Assembly: GCA_013349405.1 (NCBI GenBank)
Contig: DUZS01000015.1
Span: forward strand, 1 to 64,000
Source: Desulfuromonadales bacterium
Lineage (GTDB): Bacteria > Desulfobacterota > Desulfuromonadia > Geobacterales > Pseudopelobacteraceae
DNA length: 64,000 nucleotides
Direction of reading: 5' to 3'
Shown here: positions 408-37,405 of the stretch, piece after piece
How positions within the stretch are numbered: the stretch's first letter is position 1
Layout of the letters: each line of letters begins with the position of its first letter
Position numbers and translations under genes: made by a program
The notes under the pieces: generated by a model
The model's input: the letters and a program-made list of their open reading frames with translations, nothing else
Told to the model about the DNA's origin: nothing
Database searches by the model: none

Positions 408-1481
408 TCACACCTTCCCCTTCAGTTTATAAACGTACGCCAGTACCTCGGCAACGGCGGCATAGAGGGCTTCCGGAATCGGCTCGTTTTCTTTGACCTG
501 GTCATACAGTTCACGAGCCAGGAAGCGGTTTTCCACAAGGGTAATGCTGTGTTCACGGGCAATTTTTTTGATCGCCTCCGCCATAATATCCATGCCTTTA
601 CCGAGTACGACCGGAGCGACCATCTTCTGACGATCATATTTCAGCGCAACGGCAAAGTGAGTCGGGTTGGTAATGACAACATCGGCCAGCGGTATTATTT
701 TAGTCATGCGGCGGTGTGCCATCTGGTACTGCATCTTCTTGATTTTCCCTTTTATTTCCGGGTTACCTTCTGATTCCTTATGCTCGTCCTTGACCTCCTG
801 CTTGGTCATTTTCAGTTTTTCAATATACTGCCATTTAACATACAGCAGGTCCAGCAGGCCGAGAACGATCATGATGCCACAGGTATGAATGACGATCTTG
901 AATGCAATGTGGCCGACAAAGTTGAATATAGTTTGAATATCAGCTTCTGCAAGAAAGGTGATATTCTGCATTTCATCGCGCACGACACCGTATGCGATCC
1001 AGGCAACGACCACCAGTTTGAGCAGCGACTTAAGCATCTCAACCAGGGCATCCTTATTAAAAAGCCTGCCGAAGCCGCTCAACGGATTCAGTTTGTTGAA
1101 GCTTAATTTCAGGCGTGATGTCTGAAATTCAAATCTGCCGTTGTCCTGAATAAGCTTGGAAACCACCGCCGTAGCTATGATTGTTACGATGAGGGGGGCA
1201 AGCAGCAGCGCAATAGTACCGAACAGCTTGACAACCATCACATGCAGATTTGCCTCGGTCATCTGGAAGTTGCCCAACGTTGACAGAATTGTTGACGTAC
1301 TCTGTTTGAGGCCATCCATCATGAAACTGCCGAACATATAGAGGCTGATGATACCGGTGAGCAGCGTGAGTGACGACGTCAGCATCTGGCTCATTGGCGG
1401 CGGACTGTCTTCCCGTGACTTCTCCAGCCGCTTGCCGGTCGGCTGTTCGGTTTTTGAGTGTTTATCTGAATCGTCAGCCGT
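408..1481 (-). CDS. flhB: Flagellar export switch protein FlhB
   Basis: FlhB is the autocleaving membrane subunit of the flagellar type III export gate and switches the substrate class from hook to filament. The NPTH autocleavage motif is present near residue 272, preceded by four hydrophobic segments and followed by the usual soluble domain. The conserved FlhB N-terminus (ADDSDK..KTEQPTGKRLEKSRE) lies upstream of the first ATG (1394), in frame right after the fliR stop. No ATG, GTG or TTG occurs there. The codon at the expected position is ACG (1479-1481), seven bases after a GGGGGG Shine-Dalgarno-like run. I therefore place the start at ACG, giving 357 residues, normal for the family. If 1394 is used, the protein loses 29 conserved residues. 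Confidence 0.9.
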   Translation of the reverse strand, partial: TADDSDKHSKTEQPTGKRLEKSREDSPPPMSQMLTSSLTLLTGIISLYMFGSFMMDGLKQSTSTILSTLGNFQMTEANLHVMVVKLFGTIALLLAPLIVTIIATAVVSKLIQDNGRFEFQTSRLKLSFNKLNPLSGFGRLFNKDALVEMLKSLLKLVVVAWIAYGVVRDEMQNITFLAEADIQTIFNFVGHIAFKIVIHTCGIMIVLGLLDLLYVKWQYIEKLKMTKQEVKDEHKESEGNPEIKGKIKKMQYQMAHRRMTKIIPLADVVITNPTHFAVALKYDRQKMVAPVVLGKGMDIMAEAIKKIAREHSITLVENRFLARELYDQVKENEPIPEALYAAVAEVLAYVYKLKGKV

Positions 1482-5794: not shown

Positions 5795-6709
5795 TTAACG
5801 CTTGATATTCAGAACTTCCTGCATCATTTCATCCGAGGTCGTGATCGTTTTTGAATTGGCTGAATATGCCCGCTGCGTCTGGATCATCTTGACGAATTCA
5901 CTGGCAAGGTCGACGTTGCTCAACTCAAGGTTGCTGGAGATAATCTGTTCGGTTGAGCCGTTCGGGCCGCCTATAACCGGTGTTCCCGAGCCACCGACAA
6001 CAACACCGGATTCACGGTAGAGTGAACCGCCAACTTTTACCAAGCCGGGAGGATTGGGTATATTCGCTGTGCCTACGAATACTGTCGGGACGGTCAAAAC
6101 GGGAGGTGCACCGTTGCCATCATAGAATACGGTTGCGCTGTTGCCTCTTGAATCAGCGTAAAGGAGACTCATTTCCCCCTTGGTGCTGACACTGATTACT
6201 TTCTGAAAATCGAGCACAATGGGGGGGACGGTTGGCGGAACGGTTGCCGGGGGGGTATAGGTTGGCGTAAACACAATCGGCTTACTTTGAGAATCAAGTA
6301 CGTTAAAGTTGTCAGGAGTGATCAGGTTCCTGCCGGTATTGTCCACACGGAAGGAACCGGCACGGGTATAATAGGCGCCGGTAGCAGGTACCGCTGCGTT
6401 TGCAGTTGTTCCCGGCGCTGCTACGGCAAAGAACTCTTTACCCTGAATGAAGAGGTCCGTTGGTGATGTTGTTGTTTCCATCGAACTTTGGGAAAAGATG
6501 GTATCCACTTTCTGAATCTGCACGCCATGGCCGATCTGACCGACAGCGACGTTGCCGATCGTCGTTGACAGGACATCCGAGAACAGCATCCGGGATCCTT
6601 TGAAACCGATAGTATTGACGTTGGCAATATTGTTGCCGATAACACTCATTCCTTCTGCCTGGTTAAGTAAGCCACTGACTCCGGTAAACATCGTAGATGT
6701 AAGACTCAT
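5795..6709 (-). CDS. flgE: Flagellar hook protein, short FlgE-like
   Basis: The 304-residue protein starts with the hook/rod family signature (MFTGVSGLLNQAEGMSVIGNNIANVNTIGFKGS), has the FlgE-type SQSSMETTTSPTDLFIQGKEFF segment, and ends in the conserved helix (EFVKMIQTQRAYSANSKTITTSDEMMQEVLNI). It follows flgD and the flagellar operon protein, the normal place of flgE. Typical FlgE is about 400 residues or more, so the variable surface domain between the conserved ends is much reduced here. FlgF/FlgG-type rod proteins share the same ends; gene order favours hook. Confidence 0.85.
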   Translation of the reverse strand: MSLTSTMFTGVSGLLNQAEGMSVIGNNIANVNTIGFKGSRMLFSDVLSTTIGNVAVGQIGHGVQIQKVDTIFSQSSMETTTSPTDLFIQGKEFFAVAAPGTTANAAVPATGAYYTRAGSFRVDNTGRNLITPDNFNVLDSQSKPIVFTPTYTPPATVPPTVPPIVLDFQKVISVSTKGEMSLLYADSRGNSATVFYDGNGAPPVLTVPTVFVGTANIPNPPGLVKVGGSLYRESGVVVGGSGTPVIGGPNGSTEQIISSNLELSNVDLASEFVKMIQTQRAYSANSKTITTSDEMMQEVLNIKR

Positions 6710-7878: not shown

Positions 7879-9291
<1,413 letters not shown>

Positions 9292-21272: not shown

Positions 21273-22151
21273 ATGAATGAATTAGCTCAGGTAGTGAAAA
21301 TTGAGAAACGGATTTTCACCATCCGTGGAGTTCAAGTGATGTTGGATCGGGATCTGGCGGAATTGTACGGTGTAGAGACAAAAGTCCTGAACCAGGCGGT
21401 CAAAAGAAACATTGCCCGGTTTCCCGAACAATTCCGTTTTCAACTCACGCGACCAGAAGCCGATCAACTGGTCACAAATTGTGACCGGTTCAACAATATG
21501 AAACATTCCAGTGCTTTGCCCTATGCTTTCAACGAACAGGGTGTGGCGATGTTGTCAGCAGTTTTACGCAGCGAAACAGCCGTACAAACCAGTATTCTAA
21601 TTATCGACGCCTTCGTGAAAATGCGGCAGTTTCTGGCAAACAACGCTGATCTCTTTATGCGACTGGAGGGTGTCGAAAAACGTCAACTGCTACATGAAAT
21701 TAAAGTAGATGAAAAATTTGAGCAGCTTTTCAACGCACTTGAAGATAAAAGTATCAAACCAAAGCAAGGCATATTTTTTGATGGACAAATTTTCGATGCC
21801 TACGCCTTTGTCTGTGATCTGATTCGTTCCGCCACACAGCGGATTATTCTGATCGACAATTACATCGATGAAAGCGTGTTGACTCTGTTATCCAAGAGAG
21901 AAGCAGCGGTAAACGCCAAAATCCTGACAAATAACATCGGCAAAGCATTAGCTCTGGATATCGAAAAATTTAACCGGCAATACCCCGCTATCGAAGTGAA
22001 AACGTTCAAATCATCGCACGACCGTTTTCTTGTTATCGATGATGACATTTATCACATTGGCGCATCGCTGAAGGACTTGGGCAAGAAATGGTTCGCCTTT
22101 TCGAAGATGGATGCCAGCGCAATTGAAATGTTACAACGGGTGAAAATATGA
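21273..22151 (+). CDS. ORF6N (KilA-N type) protein with PLD-like C-terminal domain
   Basis: In the 292 residues, the N-terminal ORF6N DNA-binding-type domain (about 10-95) is clear: RIFTIRGVQVMLDRDLAELYGVETKVLNQAVKRNIARFPEQFRFQLT, then FNEQGVAMLSAVL. The C-terminal half (about 165-285) has phospholipase-D-like features: FDAYAFVCDLIRSATQRIILIDNYID, and SHDRFLVIDDDIYHIGASLKDLGKKWFAF in place of the HKD motif (HxR/D variant). Such fusions occur in mobile and defence-linked loci. A DNA-processing or DNA-sensing role is inference. It stands alone between the 38-bp repeats, and a weak ribosome binding site (GTAGAG) precedes ATG. Confidence 0.85.
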   Translation: MNELAQVVKIEKRIFTIRGVQVMLDRDLAELYGVETKVLNQAVKRNIARFPEQFRFQLTRPEADQLVTNCDRFNNMKHSSALPYAFNEQGVAMLSAVLRSETAVQTSILIIDAFVKMRQFLANNADLFMRLEGVEKRQLLHEIKVDEKFEQLFNALEDKSIKPKQGIFFDGQIFDAYAFVCDLIRSATQRIILIDNYIDESVLTLLSKREAAVNAKILTNNIGKALALDIEKFNRQYPAIEVKTFKSSHDRFLVIDDDIYHIGASLKDLGKKWFAFSKMDASAIEMLQRVKI

Positions 22152-27232: not shown

Positions 27233-28642
27233 TTACCGCCCGGCGATCATTATCGCCTGACGCAGGAAGCGCTCAACCTGATCCTGGGACCCCGCTTCAC
27301 TGTACAGCCGCAAAACCGGCTCGGTTCCGGAGGGACGGATCAGCAGCCAGTCACCATTCTCAAAGATAAATTTGAAGCCGTCACTGAAATTGGTTGCCGC
27401 CACCCGTTGGCCGTCAATGCTTTGGGGGGGATGCGCTTGTAGTTGTGCTATCAACTGCAGCTTGGCGTCATCTTCGATACGGCGGTCAATACGTTGATAA
27501 TAAAAATGCCCGATATCGTCCATAGTTTCGTTGAGTAACTGCCGCAACCCTTTGCCGCTGACCGCCATCGCTTCCAGCAGCAGTAAGCCGAGCAGGATGC
27601 CGTCCCGCTCCGGAATATGCCCCTTCACGCCAAGCCCGCCTGACTCTTCACCACCCATAAGAATATCGTGCTTCAGCATCAGCTCACAGATATGCTTAAA
27701 GCCGATCGGGGTCTCAAAAAGCTCCAGGCCGAATTTATCCGCCAGCAGATCAACCATACGGGTTGTTGATACCGTTTTGACAACTGCTCCGGTCATCTTT
27801 TTATATTCAATCAGGTGGCGCAGAATAACGGTGAAGATGCAGTGAGAGGAGAAAAAAACGCCATTCTCGTCAACTGCGCCGATCCGGTCGGCATCGCCAT
27901 CGAGCGCCAGTCCCACCTGATACGTTCCCTTTTTCAGCAGGGCGGATAATTCCTGGAGGTGTTGACCGATCGGTTCGGGCGGTTGCCCGCCAAACGAGGG
28001 GTTTTCATTACTATGAATTTCGGCAACTCCGGGAAGAAGGCGTGGTATAAAGCCGCAGCCGGCGCCATACATCGGGTCGACAACCGCTCTGATCCCGGCC
28101 TTCGCTATCAGATCAAGATCGACATAGCGACTGATCTGATGGAAATAACCTTCGCTGGGGTCAAAAAGGACAATACTGCCTTTTTTCACCGCGTCCTCAT
28201 AGGGGACTGAAATTACCCGACGACCGTTTTCACTGTTGTAGGCAACGATTTCTTCAAGTATTTTGGTTGTTGAGGGGAGCGCTGAACCGCCAAACGCCTC
28301 CTTGATCTTGAAACCGTTATACTCGGGCGGATTATGGCTGGCAGTAATCATCACACCGGCACCAGCGCCGGTCTCATGCACGGCCCACGACACTGCCGGG
28401 GTCGGAGCAAACTCTTCCGTCAAGCGGACGCTGATATCATTGCCAACTGCAATTTCAGCGACACGCCGGGCAAAGTCACGCGACAGAAAGCGCCGGTCAT
28501 AGCCGATTATCAGCCCTTTATTCCCCAGACCCTCGCGATTCAGGTAATCCATGGTGGCCTGCGCCACCTGAGAGAGATTTTCAAAGGTAAAATCACGGGC
28601 GATAACACCGCGCCAGCCATCTGTACCAAACTTTATCTGCAT
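27233..28642 (-). CDS. Phosphoglucomutase/phosphomannomutase family enzyme
   Basis: The alpha-D-phosphohexomutase of 469 residues interconverts hexose 1- and 6-phosphates. All four motifs are present: the active-site Ser loop ITASHNPPEYNG, the Mg loop DGDADR, the sugar loop GGEESGG, and the phosphate loop RPSGTEPVLRLY. ATG 28642 follows GAGGAGGG, while the longer open frame upstream lies inside FlhX sequence. It is the last gene of a run that begins with the FliK-like gene. Substrate preference cannot be told from sequence. Confidence 0.93.
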   Translation of the reverse strand: MQIKFGTDGWRGVIARDFTFENLSQVAQATMDYLNREGLGNKGLIIGYDRRFLSRDFARRVAEIAVGNDISVRLTEEFAPTPAVSWAVHETGAGAGVMITASHNPPEYNGFKIKEAFGGSALPSTTKILEEIVAYNSENGRRVISVPYEDAVKKGSIVLFDPSEGYFHQISRYVDLDLIAKAGIRAVVDPMYGAGCGFIPRLLPGVAEIHSNENPSFGGQPPEPIGQHLQELSALLKKGTYQVGLALDGDADRIGAVDENGVFFSSHCIFTVILRHLIEYKKMTGAVVKTVSTTRMVDLLADKFGLELFETPIGFKHICELMLKHDILMGGEESGGLGVKGHIPERDGILLGLLLLEAMAVSGKGLRQLLNETMDDIGHFYYQRIDRRIEDDAKLQLIAQLQAHPPQSIDGQRVAATNFSDGFKFIFENGDWLLIRPSGTEPVLRLYSEAGSQDQVERFLRQAIMIAGR

Positions 28643-28652
28643 GCATCCCTCC

Positions 28653-28934
28653 TCATTCCATAGGATTTTGTTTATTCTCCAGGTGGTGCAGCCACACAAG
28701 CACTTCTGCAACCGCTCGATACAACTCCGGCGGAATGAACTGATCATTATCAACCTGGAGCAGCAGCCTGACCAGATCCGGTGACTCGTGGACATACACC
28801 CCGGCCTCACGGGCACAGGCGATTATCGCCTCGGCGATCACACCTTTGCCACGGGCAACGACAACCGGGGCATAGTACCCCTGTTTGTATGACAGCGCCG
28901 CAGCCCGGCGCTCATGATCACTACGCTGCGGCAT
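28653..28934 (-). CDS. FlhX: stand-alone FlhB C-terminal cytoplasmic domain
   Basis: This 93-residue protein aligns with the soluble part of FlhB after the NPTH cleavage site: AAALSYKQGYYAPVVVARGKGVIAEAIIACAREAGVYVHESPDLVRLLL, ending in the ELYRAVAEVLVWLHHL helix. The NPTH motif is absent. Such FlhX proteins can replace the cleaved FlhB domain in export switching. It overlaps the FliK-like gene by 14 bases, and that coupling supports a shared role. Confidence 0.9.
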   Translation of the reverse strand: MPQRSDHERRAAALSYKQGYYAPVVVARGKGVIAEAIIACAREAGVYVHESPDLVRLLLQVDNDQFIPPELYRAVAEVLVWLHHLENKQNPME

Positions 28935-31083
28935 GGCTGATTTTCAGCGCAGCCGGGGTAAGCCCCGCACCTTCCAGCTGCTCAATCAGACGCGCCCGGC
29001 CGGTTTCCATAATTGCGACTGAAGCGTCATTTTCAGCGGTGATTGCAACGGCTACAGCACTGCCATCGAGTGTCAGCAGCGCAGTGACCGGCCCGAGGTT
29101 CGGCAGGGTGATCGTTACACTGGTCAGCCAACTCCGCTCACGGCCTCCCGACTTGTTGCGCCCCGCTCCCTTCTCCGCAACAGTCCACTCAAGGCGCTGC
29201 CCGGGAAAGAGATCCCCTCGAAACAGCAGCTGGCCATTCTGCAGAGCCGTCAACTGCTCATTTACCATCGGCAGCGAGCGAAGATCGGCGATGCCGTCAT
29301 GCCCCATGGTGTCACCGGCCTTTTTAATAGCCGCCATCATTTCCGTTGAGCCGGGCCGGGAAGCGGATCGAACCAGAGCCTCAGCAGCTGTGCCCGGTTC
29401 TGTTCCCGGCTGTGCCAGGCGGGGTGACAAGCGCCCCTGCGGCTCCTTGAGGATGTCTTCAAGCGAGTAGCTGCCGCCGAACCAGCGGGCAAGATGGGCT
29501 TCATAAAACAGCCCGCTTTCGCGCAGCCCCTGCTGAAGCATCCGGCCAAGCAGCTGCGCATCGGTCGTCGGCCCGGACAACAGGGTACGCAACATGCCCA
29601 TGGTCGCCTGAGTAGACACCTGCCCGGCAGCTTCCCCGAGAAAACCGCTGAGCCAGCGGCTGACGTCACTGACTTTTGACTCCCCCGTCCGGCCGAAACG
29701 GGCCATCAGGAAGGTCTGCTGCGGTTCGTCGCTTATGAAGAACAGGTTGATCAGGTCGCCACTGCGTACCCCTTTCGGCATGAGGAACTCCATGACCTGT
29801 TTTCCCACCAGCACGCTAAAACGCCCCCCGCCCAGGGCGGCTAAAACTTCGCCTTTCAACTGTTGACCCGGCATAAACGAGCTTGCTGGCCCCTGCTGGT
29901 TTAATGACTCCAGCAGTGCCAGTCGATTGCCGTTGATCACCGCCTGAAGAAGCTTCGCCATATCATCGCTTAAGACAACTCCGTTTCCTGTAAACGCGGA
30001 AGGTGGCGCAGCAGCAGCTGAAGCTGAAGCAGCTGCGGAGATATCGGACGCTGTCCGCCCCGTGGTCTGATACGTCTGCGCTTCATCAGAAATAATGCTG
30101 AGCACAGGCGAATTCGGGGGGAGGCTCTTCAACACGGCATTCAATCGTTCCAGCACATATCCCTGCTGGCTGGATACCCCCCCCTCGCTATGTTCCAGGA
30201 CACTCAGCCAGCGCCCGGCCTCGCTCAACTGAGGCGGGAAACTGTCGGGAACGGACCGTCCCAGAGCAAAGGCCGGCTTCGGCTCGGCTGACAGATACGT
30301 CAGGCGCAGAATGTCTCCCGGAGCAACTTTTTGCGGCAGCACCAGCTCCAGAGTCGTACCGGCAATCTGAACCATTGACCGCCCGCCTGACAACGTCCCG
30401 ACAACGGTGGCATTAACCTCATCACCCGGAAGAAGCGGCAACGGGGTCATCGGATGGGTGGCCGCTTCTACCACGGTGAATCGGGAGTTCTGGGCGATGT
30501 TTTTAAGTATCTGGGCCGCATTTGTTTCAAACGTTGCCAGACGCGCCTGATCCGGAGACAGGCCGCCGCTCCCTGCTGCGCCTATCCCTTTCGCCGCCGC
30601 CCCCCCCGAACCATACGTCAGGGCTTCATCGAGCAGATTGGCCAGCACCGCGGTTTCTCCCGACGAACGCCGCAGCAGGTCGCCGACGCTTTCCAATGAG
30701 GCACGGAGTTGCGGGTCAATTATCTGCTGGCTGGAAACCAGTATACTGAGCAGACGTGAGGCATCAGAAAGCGCCACCGGCGGGGCAACGCCTGCTTGAC
30801 GCGCGATGGCGAACGTCGAGCGCGGCTCGGAGGCGACATAGGTCATCTCCAGAGTCTGGCCGGTGCGCACCGCCATCGGCAGCTCCAGATTGAAACGCTC
30901 CGTTCCGACGCCAACCTGAACCCGGTTGTTGGGCTCCTGAGACAACACCACAGCACTGACCCGCTGGCCGGGCGTCAAAAAACTGACTTCACCTGAACGC
31001 TGCTCTGCGCTGACAAATGAAATATTTGACGCACGCGACAGCAGACTAAAAACCTGCTGCTGGATGTCCGGTGCTACGGCCAT
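28921..31083 (-). CDS. FliK-like protein with three internal repeats
   Basis: The 720 residues have a FliK-type C-terminal domain (about 615-715: VNEQLTALQNGQLLFRGDLFPGQRLEWTV..., VTALLTLDGSAVAVAITAEN). Three copies of a beta-rich module precede it at about 33-95, 213-275 and 402-465. Each runs PGQ/D..., a VxVG strand, LELPxxVxxGxxLxLxYxSxEPxxxFxxxR, and then a helix S..(S/G)RWLS. The protein probably measures or gates a secreted structure, with the partner FlhX next to it. It lies far from the main flagellar operon and is therefore a second FliK-FlhB-type unit. The start at ATG 31083 is assumed. Confidence 0.85.
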   Translation of the reverse strand: MAVAPDIQQQVFSLLSRASNISFVSAEQRSGEVSFLTPGQRVSAVVLSQEPNNRVQVGVGTERFNLELPMAVRTGQTLEMTYVASEPRSTFAIARQAGVAPPVALSDASRLLSILVSSQQIIDPQLRASLESVGDLLRRSSGETAVLANLLDEALTYGSGGAAAKGIGAAGSGGLSPDQARLATFETNAAQILKNIAQNSRFTVVEAATHPMTPLPLLPGDEVNATVVGTLSGGRSMVQIAGTTLELVLPQKVAPGDILRLTYLSAEPKPAFALGRSVPDSFPPQLSEAGRWLSVLEHSEGGVSSQQGYVLERLNAVLKSLPPNSPVLSIISDEAQTYQTTGRTASDISAAASASAAAAPPSAFTGNGVVLSDDMAKLLQAVINGNRLALLESLNQQGPASSFMPGQQLKGEVLAALGGGRFSVLVGKQVMEFLMPKGVRSGDLINLFFISDEPQQTFLMARFGRTGESKVSDVSRWLSGFLGEAAGQVSTQATMGMLRTLLSGPTTDAQLLGRMLQQGLRESGLFYEAHLARWFGGSYSLEDILKEPQGRLSPRLAQPGTEPGTAAEALVRSASRPGSTEMMAAIKKAGDTMGHDGIADLRSLPMVNEQLTALQNGQLLFRGDLFPGQRLEWTVAEKGAGRNKSGGRERSWLTSVTITLPNLGPVTALLTLDGSAVAVAITAENDASVAIMETGRARLIEQLEGAGLTPAALKISHAAA

Positions 31084-31117: not shown

Positions 31118-31414
31118 TCATCCCGCCCGCTCATAAAAAACCACCCCGACCCGCTCAATATGTTCCTTGAGCTCTTTATGACGCAGGGTCTCGTAATGCG
31201 TCACGTCAAACAGGTACGGCGTCGGCAGTTCATCGAGAGCTTCATGCAATTGAGCCGAACAGTCCACAGGACTGCTGAAGGCGAGATCGATGTCAGAGCC
31301 TCGCTGATAATCGCCCTTAGCCCGAGAACCATACATTTTAACCCAGTTGATATCAGGGAATTGCCGAATGCACTCCGCAACCAGCGCCAGAGTCTGTTCA
31401 CACAAGCCGAACAT
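31118..31414 (-). CDS. MntA-type nucleotidyltransferase (antitoxin)
   Basis: This 98-residue minimal nucleotidyltransferase shows the signature GSRAKGDYQRGSDIDLAF (GSxAxG and DxD). Members of this family inactivate the HepT ribonuclease by adding AMP. ATG 31414 overlaps the HepT stop (TGATG); the open frame upstream of it is shared with hepT. The pair is embedded between gspF and the FliK-like gene. Confidence 0.9.
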   Translation of the reverse strand: MFGLCEQTLALVAECIRQFPDINWVKMYGSRAKGDYQRGSDIDLAFSSPVDCSAQLHEALDELPTPYLFDVTHYETLRHKELKEHIERVGVVFYERAG

Positions 31415-31821
31415 CAGGCCAACTTTTCCATAAGAAAACTGTGAAACTGTTCCAAAGTTGGAAAATACGCCTGACAAATCTGTCGCACCGTTTCACGGGC
31501 ACGCTCTTCATCGTATGTGTGGGCTATCTGATTACGATTTTCAAGCATATCGATCCACACCTGCCCATCAATAATGATGTCGTTGGCAAACGCCTGTTTG
31601 ATGACCTCTCGTGGCAACTTGACATCAATACCGTTGTACACAAGATAATCCTTCATGGTTTTCCAGGAAAGTTCAAAGGTCATTTCAAATGCCTTGATCA
31701 ACGCCATCTGGATCAGGTCATCATCTGGATCATCGCCATTGGCTGCGACCGCCTGATGCAGTCGGGCGTAGGCACGTTGCAGATTGCTGAAGCGCTGTTT
31801 CCAGCGGATGTCTTCTGTCAT
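31414..31821 (-). CDS. HepT-like toxin (HI0074 family)
   Basis: The 135-residue helical protein with the family motif RNQIAHTY (Rx4-6H) near its end, and FELSWKTMKDYL, matches the HEPN ribonuclease HepT. The RxxxxHxY catalytic motif is intact. It starts 18 bases after gspF. Together with the MntA-type gene it is a complete toxin-antitoxin pair. Confidence 0.9.
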   Translation of the reverse strand: MTEDIRWKQRFSNLQRAYARLHQAVAANGDDPDDDLIQMALIKAFEMTFELSWKTMKDYLVYNGIDVKLPREVIKQAFANDIIIDGQVWIDMLENRNQIAHTYDEERARETVRQICQAYFPTLEQFHSFLMEKLA

Positions 31822-31839: not shown

Positions 31840-33051
31840 TTACTTAATCAACTGATTCAACTCAAAAATCGGCAGCAGCACCGCCAGCACCACGATACCG
31901 ACCGCCAGGCCCATTGCCAGAACAAGCAGCGGTTCCATCAATCCCATCAGCCGGGTCAGGCGGGTACTGAACTCCCGCTCATAGGCAACTCCGGCCTTTA
32001 CCAGCATCTCATCCAGATTGCCCCCTTTCTCACCGACTCCCGCGAGATGTACAAGAAGAGGCGGAAAAAGCGGGCTTTTCTTCAGACTGCCGGAGAGACT
32101 CCCCCCTTGCGCAACCTCTTCCATCACGCCACGGAGATATGCACGATAAACCCGGTTGACCACAACCTCTCCGGTAATCTCAAGAGCCTTCATGATCGGG
32201 ACTCCGCTGGAAAGGAGCAGCCCCAGAACCCGGGCAAAGCGGGAGAGAATGAGGCGCTGCAGCATTCCTCCGGCCATCGGCAGGCGCAACAGCAAAGTAT
32301 CACGTTTCAGGCGCAGGTCATCGCGCTTCATGGCGTTGCGATAAAGAGGAACCGAGGCAAGTATCAAGGCGGTGGGAATCCACCAGTACCCCTGTAGGAA
32401 ATGACTGACTTTGATCAGGATGATCGTGATGAGCGGCAGGGCGGCTTTGCTGTCTTCAAAAATTGTCACGATGCGGGGGATAACGACCGTCAGCAGGAAG
32501 AGCATTACTCCCCCCCCCACTAAGATCATCAGGAGAGGATATGCCAGGGCGGAGGTAACTTTGCTGCGTACCTGCTCCTGCTCTTCGAGGAAATCGGCCA
32601 GGCGCTCCAGTACCGCATCAAGAGCACCGCCCGCTTCACCGGCGGCCACCATGCTGACATAGCTTTCACCGAAAATATCCGGTTCGGCTGCCAGAGCCCG
32701 TGACAGCGAAGCCCCTTCGGCAATACGTTCCTTTACCCGTACAAGCGCCTGACGAAGCGGTCCGTTTTCCTCCTGCTCGCAGAGCGACCCCATCGCTTCG
32801 AACAGTGGAATGGAGGAAGCTACGAGAGTGGCAAGGCGACGGGTAAAGAGGGAAAGGTCTTCAGCGGAAACACCCCGTCGAAAGGAGAATGACCCGGCAC
32901 GGCCCTGAGCGCCTCCTTCTTCAGCTACCTCACGCGGCAGCAGCCCTTTGCCTTTCAGCTGCTGCAGCGCCTGTCGTTCAGAGTCCGCCTCAAGCGTGCC
33001 GGAGACGGACGAACCGGTGGCACTATAGGCTTTATAGCGGAACGTCGGCAT
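31840..33051 (-). CDS. gspF: Type II secretion inner membrane protein GspF
   Basis: The platform protein of the type II secretion system has 403 residues. It contains two T2SSF domains (about 60-190 and 265-390) each ending in membrane helices, with the pattern LATLVASSIPLFEAMGSL and LGLLLSSGVPIMKALEIT. The start overlaps the gspE end by 20 bases. No pseudopilin genes (gspG and others) follow; instead a HepT/MntA pair does. Confidence 0.95.
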   Translation of the reverse strand: MPTFRYKAYSATGSSVSGTLEADSERQALQQLKGKGLLPREVAEEGGAQGRAGSFSFRRGVSAEDLSLFTRRLATLVASSIPLFEAMGSLCEQEENGPLRQALVRVKERIAEGASLSRALAAEPDIFGESYVSMVAAGEAGGALDAVLERLADFLEEQEQVRSKVTSALAYPLLMILVGGGVMLFLLTVVIPRIVTIFEDSKAALPLITIILIKVSHFLQGYWWIPTALILASVPLYRNAMKRDDLRLKRDTLLLRLPMAGGMLQRLILSRFARVLGLLLSSGVPIMKALEITGEVVVNRVYRAYLRGVMEEVAQGGSLSGSLKKSPLFPPLLVHLAGVGEKGGNLDEMLVKAGVAYEREFSTRLTRLMGLMEPLLVLAMGLAVGIVVLAVLLPIFELNQLIK

Positions 33052-34609
33052 AATCGTCCTGGGTCACGCGCAGAACCTCTTCGATGGTGGTAATCCCGGC
33101 AGCGGCGCGGGCAATGCCGTCGTCACGCAGCGTCTTCATGCCGTGGGCAACCGCATACTCCTTGATTTCTCCGGCATGAGAGCGGCGTATGATCATCGAG
33201 CAGAGCTCCTGATCAATCGGCATTATTTCGTAGATGGCGGTCCGGCCGAGAGTACCGAGGCCGAAGCAGGCATCACACCCCCGACCGCGATACAGCTTAT
33301 TGGGAAGAGTGACGCCGGCGTACTGCTCCACCGGGCGATACTCTTCGCGACAGTGCGGACAGATCACCCGCACCAGACGCTGGGCGACAACGGCCGAGAG
33401 TGAGGAGGCGATCATGAACGGCTCGATGCCCATGTCAACGAGGCGGGTTACGGCGGTGGCGGCATCATTGGTATGCAGCGTCGACAGTACCAGATGGCCG
33501 GTCAAGCTGGCCTGGATGGCAATTTCGGCGGTTTCGGCGTCACGGATTTCGCCGACCATGATGATGTCAGGATCTTGACGCAGGATGGAACGGAGGCCAC
33601 CGGCAAAGGTAAGGTCGATTTTTGGGTTGACCTGAATCTGGCCGATGCCTCTGATCTGGTATTCAATCGGATCTTCAATGGTGATGATGTTTTTTTCGCT
33701 GGAATTTACTTTATTCAGCGCTGCGTAGAGAGTCGTCGATTTACCGCTGCCGGTCGGACCGGTCACCAGGATGATACCGCTCGTCCGGTTCAGCATCCGC
33801 TCCAGCGTACGCACCCCCTGTTCCCCAAGGCCGATGTCGGCCAGGGAAAGGATACCTTTTTTCTTGTCAAGCAGGCGCAACACCGCCCGCTCCCCGTAGT
33901 ACGTCGGGATGATGGAGACGCGGATATCGACGTCGCGGCCCGCAACCCGCACCCGGATGCGGCCATCCTGCGGCAGGCGCTTCTCGGCTATGTTAAGACC
34001 TGCCATTATTTTGACACGCGAGACAAGAGCATCCTGGATAATTTTGGGGGGGGAAAGTTTTTCGTAGAGGATACCGTCGATGCGAAAACGCACGAGAAGA
34101 TCACGTTCGTACGGTTCGATATGGACGTCACTAACCCGCTCTTTGACCGCTTCGGAGAGGATTGAGTTGAGCAGCCGGATAACCGGAGCTTCGTCAGAGA
34201 GATCGAGCAGGTCAGTCGGGTTGTTCAGTTCAGTGGCAACCGTCGAAAGGTCTTCTCCCTGCAACTCCTGCAGCACTTCGCGAGCGGTCCCGGAGACACT
34301 GGAGTAGACGTGGTTGATGGTATCCGCCAGCAGAGAGTCCGGGAGCAGCACCGCTTCGACCGGCTTGCCGAACAGCAGCCGCAGTTCGCCGAGCTGCAAT
34401 ATTCCGGCGGCACTGGAGACGGCAACCATGATAACGCCGTCAACCTCGCGTAGCGGTAAAATCGAGTTGGTACGGGCAAACGTCAGTGGAATCCGATTGA
34501 GAAGTTCAGCATCAATCTCTTCATTTCTGATTTCAAGCAGGCAGGTAATTCCCAGCCTGTCAGCGGTAGCCCTCAGTTCATCAGGGCTGCTTGCAGTATC
34601 GGCACTCAT
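33032..34609 (-). CDS. gspE: Type II secretion ATPase GspE
   Basis: The 525-residue secretion ATPase has an N-terminal GspE-N domain (about 1-150), Walker A GPTGSGKSTTLY (about 283), Asp box DPDIIMVGEIRD, Walker B-type, and His box. It also has the C-terminal tetracysteine zinc site (CPHC near 418 and CDAC near 447). Length is standard. It overlaps the gspD end by four bases and the gspF start by 20, so all three are co-translated. Confidence 0.96.
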   Translation of the reverse strand: MSADTASSPDELRATADRLGITCLLEIRNEEIDAELLNRIPLTFARTNSILPLREVDGVIMVAVSSAAGILQLGELRLLFGKPVEAVLLPDSLLADTINHVYSSVSGTAREVLQELQGEDLSTVATELNNPTDLLDLSDEAPVIRLLNSILSEAVKERVSDVHIEPYERDLLVRFRIDGILYEKLSPPKIIQDALVSRVKIMAGLNIAEKRLPQDGRIRVRVAGRDVDIRVSIIPTYYGERAVLRLLDKKKGILSLADIGLGEQGVRTLERMLNRTSGIILVTGPTGSGKSTTLYAALNKVNSSEKNIITIEDPIEYQIRGIGQIQVNPKIDLTFAGGLRSILRQDPDIIMVGEIRDAETAEIAIQASLTGHLVLSTLHTNDAATAVTRLVDMGIEPFMIASSLSAVVAQRLVRVICPHCREEYRPVEQYAGVTLPNKLYRGRGCDACFGLGTLGRTAIYEIMPIDQELCSMIIRRSHAGEIKEYAVAHGMKTLRDDGIARAAAGITTIEEVLRVTQDDYADVPL

Positions 34610-36498
34610 TTGCCGGACACCTCTGTGGGAATATCAACCGTACCGGTTTTTTTCGCCGTTTCCTCAAACGTCTGGCGCTGCATCTGCGTCATTTCGGCGA
34701 GGTCGGCGGCATCCTTGATAATATACGGGGTCAGCAGCAGCACCAGATTGGTTTTTTTGCGCACTTTAGACGTGGTTTTAAACATCCAGCCAAGCAGCGG
34801 AATATCGCCCAGAAACGGCACCTTGCTGATGACGTCCTCTTCAAGGTCCTGAATCAGGCCGCCGATTACCACCGTCTCCTTGTTTTTTACGACAACGTTG
34901 GTCTTTGCTGAACGCTTGGTAGTAACCAGATCGATCGCCTGCCCTTTTCCGGCCTTTACCTGGGAGATTTCCTGGTTAATCTCAAGGCGGATGTAATCGC
35001 CTTCACTTATCTGCGGTTTGATTTTAAGAATGATGCCGACGTCCTTGCGCTCAACCGATGTCGTCGAGAATGTGGCACTCTGTGTTGACGCCCCCTGGAA
35101 CGGCACGTTTTCGCCGACGTTGATTTCCGCCTCTTTGTTATCGGAGGTCAGTATGTTCGGCGTCGAGAGGATGTTCAGCAGACCGTTTTTATCCAGAGCC
35201 TTAAGCACTGCGCTCACATTGAGCGCGCTGGCGTTGATAACCGGCGTTAACGTTCCGCCTCCGGCGATAATTGTCCCGATGGTCGTCAGTGATCCAAGCG
35301 GATCATACATACCGGCGACCGTCAGGTTATTACCTGGCTGTCCCCCGCCAATCGCCCCGAGCTGCACCCCCAATTCGTTCGATTTATCAAGTGATATCTC
35401 CGCGATCATTGCCTGTACGAATACCTGTTTACTGCGCCGGTCGAGTTTTTTGATCACCTGAATAAGATTATTGTAATCATTGGGAGAAGCCATGATCACC
35501 AGCGAGTTTGAGGCCTTGTCCGGAGTGATGGTGACTTTGCCGCTGTCAAATGCCGAAGCTTGCGGTGCAGCAGCGCCGGCCTGAGGGGCTGCCTGGGCGG
35601 TGATCCCTTTGACGATATTGTCAAGGACTTTTGCCATTTCGGTCGCGTCGGCGTTTTCCAGATAATAAACGTTGACTTTGCTGCTTGCCTCAGGCGGGGT
35701 GACGTCCAGTTTCGCGACGAGCTCGCGGACCGCTTTTTTGGTTGTTTCGCTACCGAAAACGAGCAGGGCATTCAGCCGTTGATCTGCAATAACTGTAGCA
35801 GAGCTGTTCCCCACTGCCGCGGGCTGGCCGCCGGATTTGCCATCGGAACCGTTCAGCCATTGACGTGCGGTTGTTGCGGCGCTTTCAGCCGAGGCATTTT
35901 TGAGATAGATGATTTCAAGGCCCTCACGGGTACGCTCCGTGTCAATCGTCTGCAAAATGCCATGCAGCTTGCGGATATTGATCGATGAGTCGACCATCAG
36001 AATGAGGTTGCCCGGGCCAAATGCCGAGAGGTGCCCATCCTTGGAGATCATCGGCTGCAGAAAAGTCACCGCTTCCTGCGGGGTGATATATTCAAGCTTG
36101 GTTACCTGGGCTACATAGTTCTCGTTTACCGGCGCCTGTTCACCCTGCGGCAACAGCTTGAAGCCTGACTGCCGGGCAGATGCAGAGGGAACGATCTTGG
36201 CAACCCTGCCGCTCTCGACGACGATAAACCCCTTCAGCTCAAGAACGGAGGTAAAGACATTGTATGCCTCTTCGATCGAGAGTTTCGAGGGAGAATACAC
36301 CGAAATTTTGCCTTTGACACGTTCATCAAGGATAAAATTTTTGCCGGTCAGGTCACTGATGAACTTCACCATGGTGGATATATCCACTTCGTTGAAATTC
36401 AGCACCACTCCTTTGCCCCCGGCGGCCAGTACCGGAGTGGCGCAGAGCGTTGCAACCAGGACTATTGTACAAAAGATTCGAGATATATGTCGTGTCAA
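34606..36498 (-). CDS. gspD: Type II secretion secretin GspD
   Basis: The 630-residue outer-membrane secretin has a signal peptide (RIFCTIVLVATLCATPVLA) and N0-N3 domains (VLNFNEVDISTMVKFISDLTGKNFILD...). The C-terminal beta-barrel (NVPFQGASTQSATFSTTSVERKDVGIILKIKPQI) and VVIGGLIQDLEEDVISKVPFLGDIPLLGWMF follow. The start is TTG 36498, preceded by a perfect AGGAGG five bases upstream; the open frame upstream has no signal-peptide character. It lies 22 bases after gspC. Confidence 0.94.
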   Translation of the reverse strand: MTRHISRIFCTIVLVATLCATPVLAAGGKGVVLNFNEVDISTMVKFISDLTGKNFILDERVKGKISVYSPSKLSIEEAYNVFTSVLELKGFIVVESGRVAKIVPSASARQSGFKLLPQGEQAPVNENYVAQVTKLEYITPQEAVTFLQPMISKDGHLSAFGPGNLILMVDSSINIRKLHGILQTIDTERTREGLEIIYLKNASAESAATTARQWLNGSDGKSGGQPAAVGNSSATVIADQRLNALLVFGSETTKKAVRELVAKLDVTPPEASSKVNVYYLENADATEMAKVLDNIVKGITAQAAPQAGAAAPQASAFDSGKVTITPDKASNSLVIMASPNDYNNLIQVIKKLDRRSKQVFVQAMIAEISLDKSNELGVQLGAIGGGQPGNNLTVAGMYDPLGSLTTIGTIIAGGGTLTPVINASALNVSAVLKALDKNGLLNILSTPNILTSDNKEAEINVGENVPFQGASTQSATFSTTSVERKDVGIILKIKPQISEGDYIRLEINQEISQVKAGKGQAIDLVTTKRSAKTNVVVKNKETVVIGGLIQDLEEDVISKVPFLGDIPLLGWMFKTTSKVRKKTNLVLLLTPYIIKDAADLAEMTQMQRQTFEETAKKTGTVDIPTEVSGK

Positions 36499-36520
36499 GT
36501 GCGCCTCCTGAGTGCTACCT

Positions 36521-37405
36521 TCATCGGATATCGTAATTGAACGTCTGCGGCAGGCCATCCCGGATAATATCCAGTTTCAGCCGGCTCTGCCCTTTGAGGG
36601 CAATGAATGATTGCAGCGCCTTGTCCGGCGAATCCATCGGAAAATCATTCAACCGCAACAGCACGTCACCATTTTTAATGCCGATCATTGCGAATAAACC
36701 ATTCGGTTTTACCTCTGATGCCCGGAAGCCTTCTACCTTGCCATCCTTCTGGCTGGGGAGCAGACGGGCATCACTCATTGCCTGAGCCGGGTTATCCAGT
36801 GTGGCATTAAGCGCCCGCTGATCAATGACAAAGCTGCCGGCACCCGTGCTGGTAACTCCAACTGCTGAATGGGCCGCTCCCGCTGCGGCCTGACTGGGCG
36901 GAGGGGTCGCCGCCGGCGCCATGGGAGTCAACAGTTCAACTCTCTTGTTATTGATGACGATGAAGGCTCGTTCACTGACCACTTCAGCAAGTCGCCCGGC
37001 ATCAAAAACCATATCTCCGAGACGGAACACCCGCTCTTCCTGTTTTGTCGTATGTCGAACCAGAGCGAAGGTTTCACGGAATGAACCGACCACCGTCCCG
37101 AGCAGCATCAGTTCTGACGGTGCCGTGGTCGGGACAGCTGCCTGAGCGGCCACCGGAGCGTTCGTAATGGGCGTGAGCGCACCGACTGTTGCCGGCCCGA
37201 ATAAACCGCCTGTAAGAATCGGGGCATAGAAAGAGAGCTCTTCCGTGCGTGCAGGAGCGGATGACGAAGCGGCAAGCGGCGCACCCCCTTTGGGCAGAAA
37301 TACGTTGCCGAGTTTTGCCGACAGGCGTTCCGTCGTTATCCCTGCCAATAAAGCGATAATGGCAATACCAAGAAGGCCATTTATGATGGTTACGGTACGT
37401 GGCAT
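36521..37405 (-). CDS. gspC: Type II secretion coupling protein GspC
   Basis: This 294-residue bitopic membrane protein has one N-terminal helix (about 8-26) and the homology region (LMLLGTVVGSFRETFALVRHTTKQEERVFRLGDMVFDAGRLAEVVSERAFI). A C-terminal PDZ-like domain follows (FRASEVKPNGLFAMIGIKNGDVLLRLNDFPMDSPDKALQ). It connects the platform to the secretin. Its ATG shares a base with the dapF stop. Confidence 0.93.
   Translation of the reverse strand: MPRTVTIINGLLGIAIIALLAGITTERLSAKLGNVFLPKGGAPLAASSSAPARTEELSFYAPILTGGLFGPATVGALTPITNAPVAAQAAVPTTAPSELMLLGTVVGSFRETFALVRHTTKQEERVFRLGDMVFDAGRLAEVVSERAFIVINNKRVELLTPMAPAATPPPSQAAAGAAHSAVGVTSTGAGSFVIDQRALNATLDNPAQAMSDARLLPSQKDGKVEGFRASEVKPNGLFAMIGIKNGDVLLRLNDFPMDSPDKALQSFIALKGQSRLKLDIIRDGLPQTFNYDIR

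Follow-up and report, generated by a model that had tools for sequence, protein, structure and literature searches.

What does a flagellated bacterium do with a second pair of genes of the export-switch type? The question is raised by a stretch of 64,000 nucleotides (the window) in which the main flagellar operon has its own fliK (7879..9291, minus strand; PF02120, E 6.2e-20) and its own full-length flhB with the NPTH autocleavage site (about 408..1457, minus strand; PF01312 matched over positions 2–335; open frame of 358 aa). Outside this operon lies another pair of genes of the same two types, one encoding a FliK-like protein and the other the C-terminal domain of FlhB. An earlier note, made from the letters of the window, had reported this second FliK–FlhB-type pair and its position outside the operon. 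Both points hold: the coordinates are right, the three repeats in the FliK-like protein score above shuffled sequences, and the two products have a Flg_hook domain and a free FlhB C-terminal domain, respectively.

A FliK-type gene and its overlapping partner, which encodes the FlhB C-terminal domain alone

The larger gene of the pair (28921..31083, minus strand) encodes a FliK-like protein of 720 aa, here termed FliK2, in which three modules precede a C-terminal T3S4/Flg_hook switch domain. The switch domain (about residues 648–717; 28930..29145, minus strand) is matched by Pfam PF02120 with an E value of 4.9e-13 and a bit score of 49.1, above the curated cut-off of 29.8, and the best structural matches of the C-terminal part are the substrate-switch domain of PscP (5cuk) and the C-terminal domain of FliK (2rrl). 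Because Pfam and predicted fold agree, the C-terminus of FliK2 can be firmly assigned as a switch domain. The Flg_hook assignment is also the only feature that FliK2 has in common with the main FliK, and a BLAST comparison of the two proteins found no significant similarity. Whereas the N-terminus of the main FliK is of low-complexity, ruler-like composition, FliK2 has no such part and instead carries three modules that are predicted to be folded; the fraction of order-promoting residues is 0.31 in FliK2 versus 0.22 in the main FliK.

The smaller gene, flhX (28653..28934, minus strand), encodes a free FlhB cytoplasmic C-terminal domain of 93 aa, recognized by Pfam PF01312, by FlhB chains in the PDB and in an alignment of 102 sequences. 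FlhX matches PF01312 (Bac_export_2) only at profile positions 262–334 (E 1.3e-17) and has no membrane part. The start codon of flhX sits inside the end of fliK2 (...ATGCCGCAGCGTAG...), and this 14-bp overlap between the fliK2 stop and the flhX start (28921..28934, minus strand, from the ORF coordinates) suggests that the two genes are translationally coupled. Against the NCBIfam model TIGR00789, FlhX scores 81.7 bits, below the curated cut-off of 117.35 bits, which is reached by none of the 296 genomes sampled from the phylum.

The NPTH autocleavage site is absent from all 102 aligned FlhX sequences, and FlhX thus corresponds to FlhB-CC as it is after autocleavage. The set also shares the loss of a single residue, at position 324 of Salmonella FlhB. 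In Salmonella FlhB, the pocket for early substrates is made up of A286, P287, A341 and L344. These residues are kept in the 93-aa FlhX as A22, P23, A76 and L79, and across the 102 sequences the four positions are retained in 101, 101, 102 and 97, respectively. Because no more than 18 of the 77 alignment columns are conserved at 95% or more, the retained pocket suggests that FlhX may still be able to bind early substrates; conservation of a purely structural kind, serving the core fold, is a possible alternative. Long frames around flhX in some GC-rich genomes (L063–L069) were considered as FliK–FlhX gene fusions and rejected, being out-of-frame over or beside the upstream gene.

Distribution of the pair

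In the source genome's family, FliK2 is encoded by 52 of 59 genomes. These 52 are also the genomes in which one or more Flg_hook domains occur, and the seven genomes without Flg_hook all lack FliK2. At least two Flg_hook matches are present in 50 of the 52 FliK2-bearing genomes, and a search for FlhB in the 58 nearest relatives gives a picture that agrees with these counts. The pair thus accompanies the main flagellar genes and never clearly replaces them, which is how the earlier note had placed it; replacement of the main fliK is rejected by the counts from both family and phylum. Two genomes (G008 and G023) have FliK2 only, but their assemblies are fragmented, into 510 and 800 contigs. Two others (G020 and G365) have three Flg_hook matches rather than two, the third being either a further FliK-type gene or contamination (listed as 9 and 6%).

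Across the phylum, 188 of the 296 sampled genomes have an FlhB-type gene, of which 120 have at least two and 68 just one. At least two Flg_hook genes occur in 93 of the 120 genomes with multiple FlhB-type genes versus 4 of the 68 with a single one (Fisher p about 3e-23, calculated over lineages that are not independent). For two of these four exceptions (G189 and G231), the sole FlhB-type match scores like FlhX, so that the assembly probably lacks the main flhB. Furthermore, in a scan of 47 proteins, namely FliK2 and the products of 46 genes located immediately upstream of flhX, 42 matched Flg_hook. Extra FlhB-type and extra FliK-type genes are co-inherited across the phylum, and the FliK2–FlhX pair is widespread in the phylum and strictly tied to flagellar genes in its own family. 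In the same order, several genomes with flagella have one FlhB-type gene only, and some flagellated relatives lack the pair.

A proposed role in the flagellar export switch

The switch between classes of exported substrate has been studied in Salmonella, where a 2026 study found it to be the FliK-dependent ejection of the cleaved FlhB-CCD, on which early export depends; a hydrophobic pocket for early substrates in FlhB-CC is also mentioned (PMC13344023). The pair described here resembles Salmonella FliK and FlhB-CCD in bringing together a T3S4 switch domain and an FlhB-CC domain. However, the FlhB-CCD of Salmonella is produced by autocleavage of FlhB (PMC13344023), whereas here it is encoded by a separate gene, and FliK2 additionally has modules that are predicted to be folded.

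Given that ejection of FlhB-CC constitutes the switch, a separate FlhB-CC gene overlapping a FliK-type gene is consistent with a cassette by which the switch is tuned or reset. We put the probability at roughly one half that FliK2–FlhX is an accessory cassette for the substrate-specificity switch, working on the only flagellar type III apparatus present, in which FlhX serves as a spare FlhB-CC in already cleaved form and FliK2 is the switch protein that goes with it. The probable role of such a cassette is to tune the flagellar export switch or to reset it, and not to serve a second hook. The basis for this reading is the gene overlap, co-inheritance, the domain types, the absent NPTH site, pocket conservation, the single apparatus and the history of the modules. 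Points that speak against it are the possible structural role of the pocket residues, the single FlhB-type gene in several flagellated genomes of the order and in 68 of 188 genomes of the phylum, the TIGR00789 score below cut-off, the position of the locus among non-flagellar genes and the modest confidence of the FliK2 model.

As proposed, FlhX would be a stand-alone, already-cleaved copy of FlhB-CC that retains the early-substrate pocket, and FliK2 would be its dedicated partner, with a C-terminal T3S4 domain of the type that contacts FlhB-CC and with N-terminal OB-like modules that may act as folded binding or spacing domains. The two proteins would form a complex, and FlhX would dock at an empty FlhB-CC site, so that early (rod and hook) export is kept or restored. 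FliK2 would either deliver FlhX or eject it, and together the two would tune when, or whether, the switch begun by the main FliK becomes final. A bolder version, which we consider doubtful, is that the switch is reversible: the main FliK would eject FlhB-CC, FlhX would re-occupy the site and return the apparatus to early export, and FliK2 would serve as both carrier and ejector. If correct, this would provide for repair or for a second round of rod- or hook-type export.

The main rival to the cassette reading is that FlhX is a decoy that never docks but instead binds FliK2, or the main FliK, and retains it in the cytosol, with FliK2 acting as an anti-switch or delay. Co-inheritance and gene overlap would hold equally in that case, and the predicted folding of FliK2 over its modules is more in line with a protein of the cytosol than with a ruler that is exported. 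However, nearly all FlhX proteins retain the early-substrate pocket, for which a simple decoy would have no use, and Helicobacter pylori HP1575 is reported, by the title of a paper cited in PMC3040844, to be able to replace FlhB-CC. A decoy is a possible explanation of the pair, although not the one we favor.

HP1575 (FlhX/FlhB2) is termed a "spare part" for FlhB-CC in that title (Wand et al. 2006, as cited in PMC3040844). Both it and the FlhX described here are free FlhB C-terminal domains found beside a full FlhB, which is a likeness of description. To our knowledge, HP1575 is the only free FlhB C-terminal homologue to have been tested, and we know of no triple-module FliK adjoining it. In Bacillus subtilis, a FliK-like gene, ylqG, presumably adjoins the FlhB C-terminal-like gene ylqH, which would be the same gene arrangement in a different phylum; we know of no published function for these genes. 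An flhX–fliK pair has also been named in Campylobacterota (Nitratiruptor), in a survey that does no more than name it (PMC9321776), and FlhX has been named in Actinobacteria (PMC10746217). Like the pair described here, that of Nitratiruptor combines a fliK gene with one for the FlhB C-terminal domain on its own, at a site apart from the main flagellar cluster, but it is known from gene names only, and the pair in the source genome has a main fliK besides. Searches of the open-licence literature returned nothing on the function of YlqG/YlqH or of a second FliK, and no paper on the function of an flhX–fliK pair, of the module or of its triplication. The pair is thus already known at the level of gene names (flhX–fliK).

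Little function has been assigned to free FlhB C-terminal domains, although they occur widely in the phylum (in about 120 of the 188 genomes that have an FlhB-type gene). In the light of the 2026 study, in which the switch proved to consist in the removal of FlhB-CC, a separate copy of FlhB-CC that has no cleavage site and comes with its own FliK partner offers a genetic handle on whether the switch can be held back or reset.

Repeat modules of FliK2 and their history

The three modules of FliK2 are R1 (residues 1–160; 30604..31083), R2 (about residues 183–344; 30052..30537) and R3 (about residues 370–531; 29491..29976), all on the minus strand. R1 is supported by a profile match in the genome and is predicted to form a helix, six strands and further helices; R2 and R3 are each supported by alignment, profile–profile comparison, structure prediction and a profile match. 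Local alignment scores of 187 (R1–R2), 145 (R2–R3) and 120 (R1–R3) lie well above those of shuffled sequences (means 32–36, standard deviations 5–6, maxima 55–57), and profile–profile probabilities among the three are 99.6, 99.6 and 98.4%. The repeat motif quoted in the earlier note is present in three copies as claimed, but its letters are not constant: R1 ends in RLLS rather than RWLS, R2 has PGD and LVLP, and R3 has FLMP. Moreover, the repeat unit, at about 155 residues, is longer than that motif. The C-terminal domain was considered as a fourth repeat and rejected by alignment scores and profile–profile comparison. Between R3 and the C-terminal part, the family alignment reveals a further motif, SGLFYE.HLARWF (residues 523–535; 29479..29517, minus strand), which is mostly invariant in 39 family sequences and is also carried by relatives with a single module.

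An AlphaFold2 model of FliK2 built on 39 family sequences is of modest quality overall (mean pLDDT 58.9, pTM 0.29), with the module barrels at a pLDDT of about 70–84. R1, R2 and R3 have the same predicted order of elements, starting with one helix at the N-terminus and continuing with six strands and then three helices, which agrees with the repeats being like folds. The earlier note's reading of a second pair passes both of the checks set in that note, on accompaniment of the main fliK and on likeness of fold. In structural comparison, the barrel core of each module resembles OB-type chains (NusA S1, eIF5A, exosome, eIF2alpha, IF-1 and PAN/Rpt) at Z scores of 5–7, a range in which a shared arrangement is possible, and Foldseek gave E values of 0.02 or higher. 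The modules may therefore be described as OB-like, as a lead and not as proof; it is the predicted barrel core that matches the OB-fold domains of NusA S1, eIF5A, IF-1 and PAN/Rpt, without sequence relation. A model of a single module, built on 76 modules, was worse than the full-length model and was set aside (mean pLDDT 58.7, pTM 0.40; Foldseek E again 0.02 or higher). Sequence searches of the PDB with the modules gave nothing reliable, and a search of PHROGs gave no match.

A genome-wide search for the module yields three matches in each of six family members and single matches in nine other genomes, and all nine of the single modules lie directly upstream of an flhX gene. With an iterated profile, the module is found once in most FlhX partners. 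Because module matches lie upstream of flhX, and the main FliK of the source genome has no module by the same iterated profile, the module is, as judged by profile matches, a hallmark of the FlhX partner and not of flagellar rulers generally. No module was found in the upstream proteins of L035, L038–L040, L046, L048, L057 and L062, most of which are cut by the start of the locus.

In a tree of modules, the R1 copies and the R2 copies of the family fall into clades of their own (support 0.999), and R3 modules group together with weak support; the triplication thus predates the family. The module is usually single-copy and, as read from these sequences, was tripled once, in the source genome's family. 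In one species of the family, G351 (contig 135, L092), the frame encoding FliK2 is 330 aa long and holds just one module, whereas its gene-bearing congeners have three. The first third of this module is R1-like (44/61 residues identical to R1 of G352, versus 15/59 for R2 and 13/59 for R3), and its last third is R3-like (35/57 identical to R3 of G352, versus 7/51 for R1 and 7/52 for R2). Because the module is an R1/R3 chimera, and the C-terminal domain of the protein nests with those of the three-module sisters G352 and G353, the single module of G351 reflects a secondary loss of two modules through recombination between R1 and R3, with the main fliK and the pair both kept. G351 is in effect a natural deletion experiment, and the family provides a natural series of modules (three copies, with one in a close relative) that bears on whether FliK2 is a ruler or a regulator.

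The earlier note had viewed the repeats as ruler units or as a substrate-recognition array, and the pair as possibly controlling a second hook length or some other exported fiber. Recognition of substrates may be a role of the modules. The ruler reading, put in full, is that FliK2 would be a second exported ruler, its three modules specifying either a longer hook or another hook-like axial structure. Hook length in Salmonella is indeed set by the length of the FliK ruler (PMC13344023), and FliK2 does have a FliK-type switch domain behind a long N-terminal part. However, a second hook or other fiber finds no support in the source genome, which has one FlhA and one full FlhB and thus no second export apparatus; a second type III apparatus was rejected on this count. 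The strict ruler reading is further weakened because other lineages manage with one module, G351 went from three to one while keeping its main fliK, and the modules are predicted to be folded, the ruler-like low-complexity N-terminus belonging to the main FliK. A second ruler is therefore unlikely, although FliK2 may still be exported. The hook-type genes listed for this question were of the FlgE/F/G type only, and a second hook protein is possible.

Genomic neighborhood

The fliK2–flhX locus is surrounded by type II secretion and sugar-phosphate genes, not by flagellar ones. Directly downstream of flhX is a gene of the phosphoglucomutase/phosphomannomutase family (27233..28648, minus strand), which is a conserved neighbor. 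Upstream of fliK2 are the type II secretion genes gspD-gspE-gspF (31840..36558, minus strand), named from their sequences and conserved as neighbors in the genus, and gspC (36521–37405; Pfam T2SSC). A function of the pair in type II secretion, or in some other system of the envelope, instead of in flagella is very unlikely: gspDEF lie directly upstream in the genus, but the neighbors of fliK2–flhX vary between lineages, FliK2 is absent from 7/7 family genomes without Flg_hook genes, and both proteins have flagellar type III switch domains. The least probable explanation is that of a redundant relic under weak selection and with no present role, since, although the pair is absent from some flagellated relatives and FliK2 is split over two frames in the single-contig genome G356, the protein is full-length in nearly all family members, with 43–82% identity and many invariant residues, and is strictly tied to flagellar genes.

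The split gene of G356 (contig 1, 3870500–3877800; L095) has R1 in a 262-aa frame and R2, R3 and the C-terminal part in a 585-aa frame; a split gene, decay or a sequencing error are all possible. In the source genome, flhA is located at G000 contig 3, 59700–61658 (plus strand), on a different contig from flhB, so the flagellar genes lie in at least two clusters. Beside flgD in the main operon, at 5795–6709 (minus strand), is a gene for a FlgE/F/G-type axial protein of 304 aa, which is short for a hook protein and falls below the equivalog cut-offs shown. Between gspF and fliK2, at 31118–31821 (minus strand), is a toxin–antitoxin-like pair made up of a nucleotidyltransferase (MntA/Polbeta-type) and a HepT-like/NTase substrate-binding protein. 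Among the relatives checked, this pair is present only in L083, and several others have gspF directly before fliK2. An ORF6N-domain gene of phage or mobile-element type (21273–22151, plus strand) lies between flagellar and chemotaxis-type genes.
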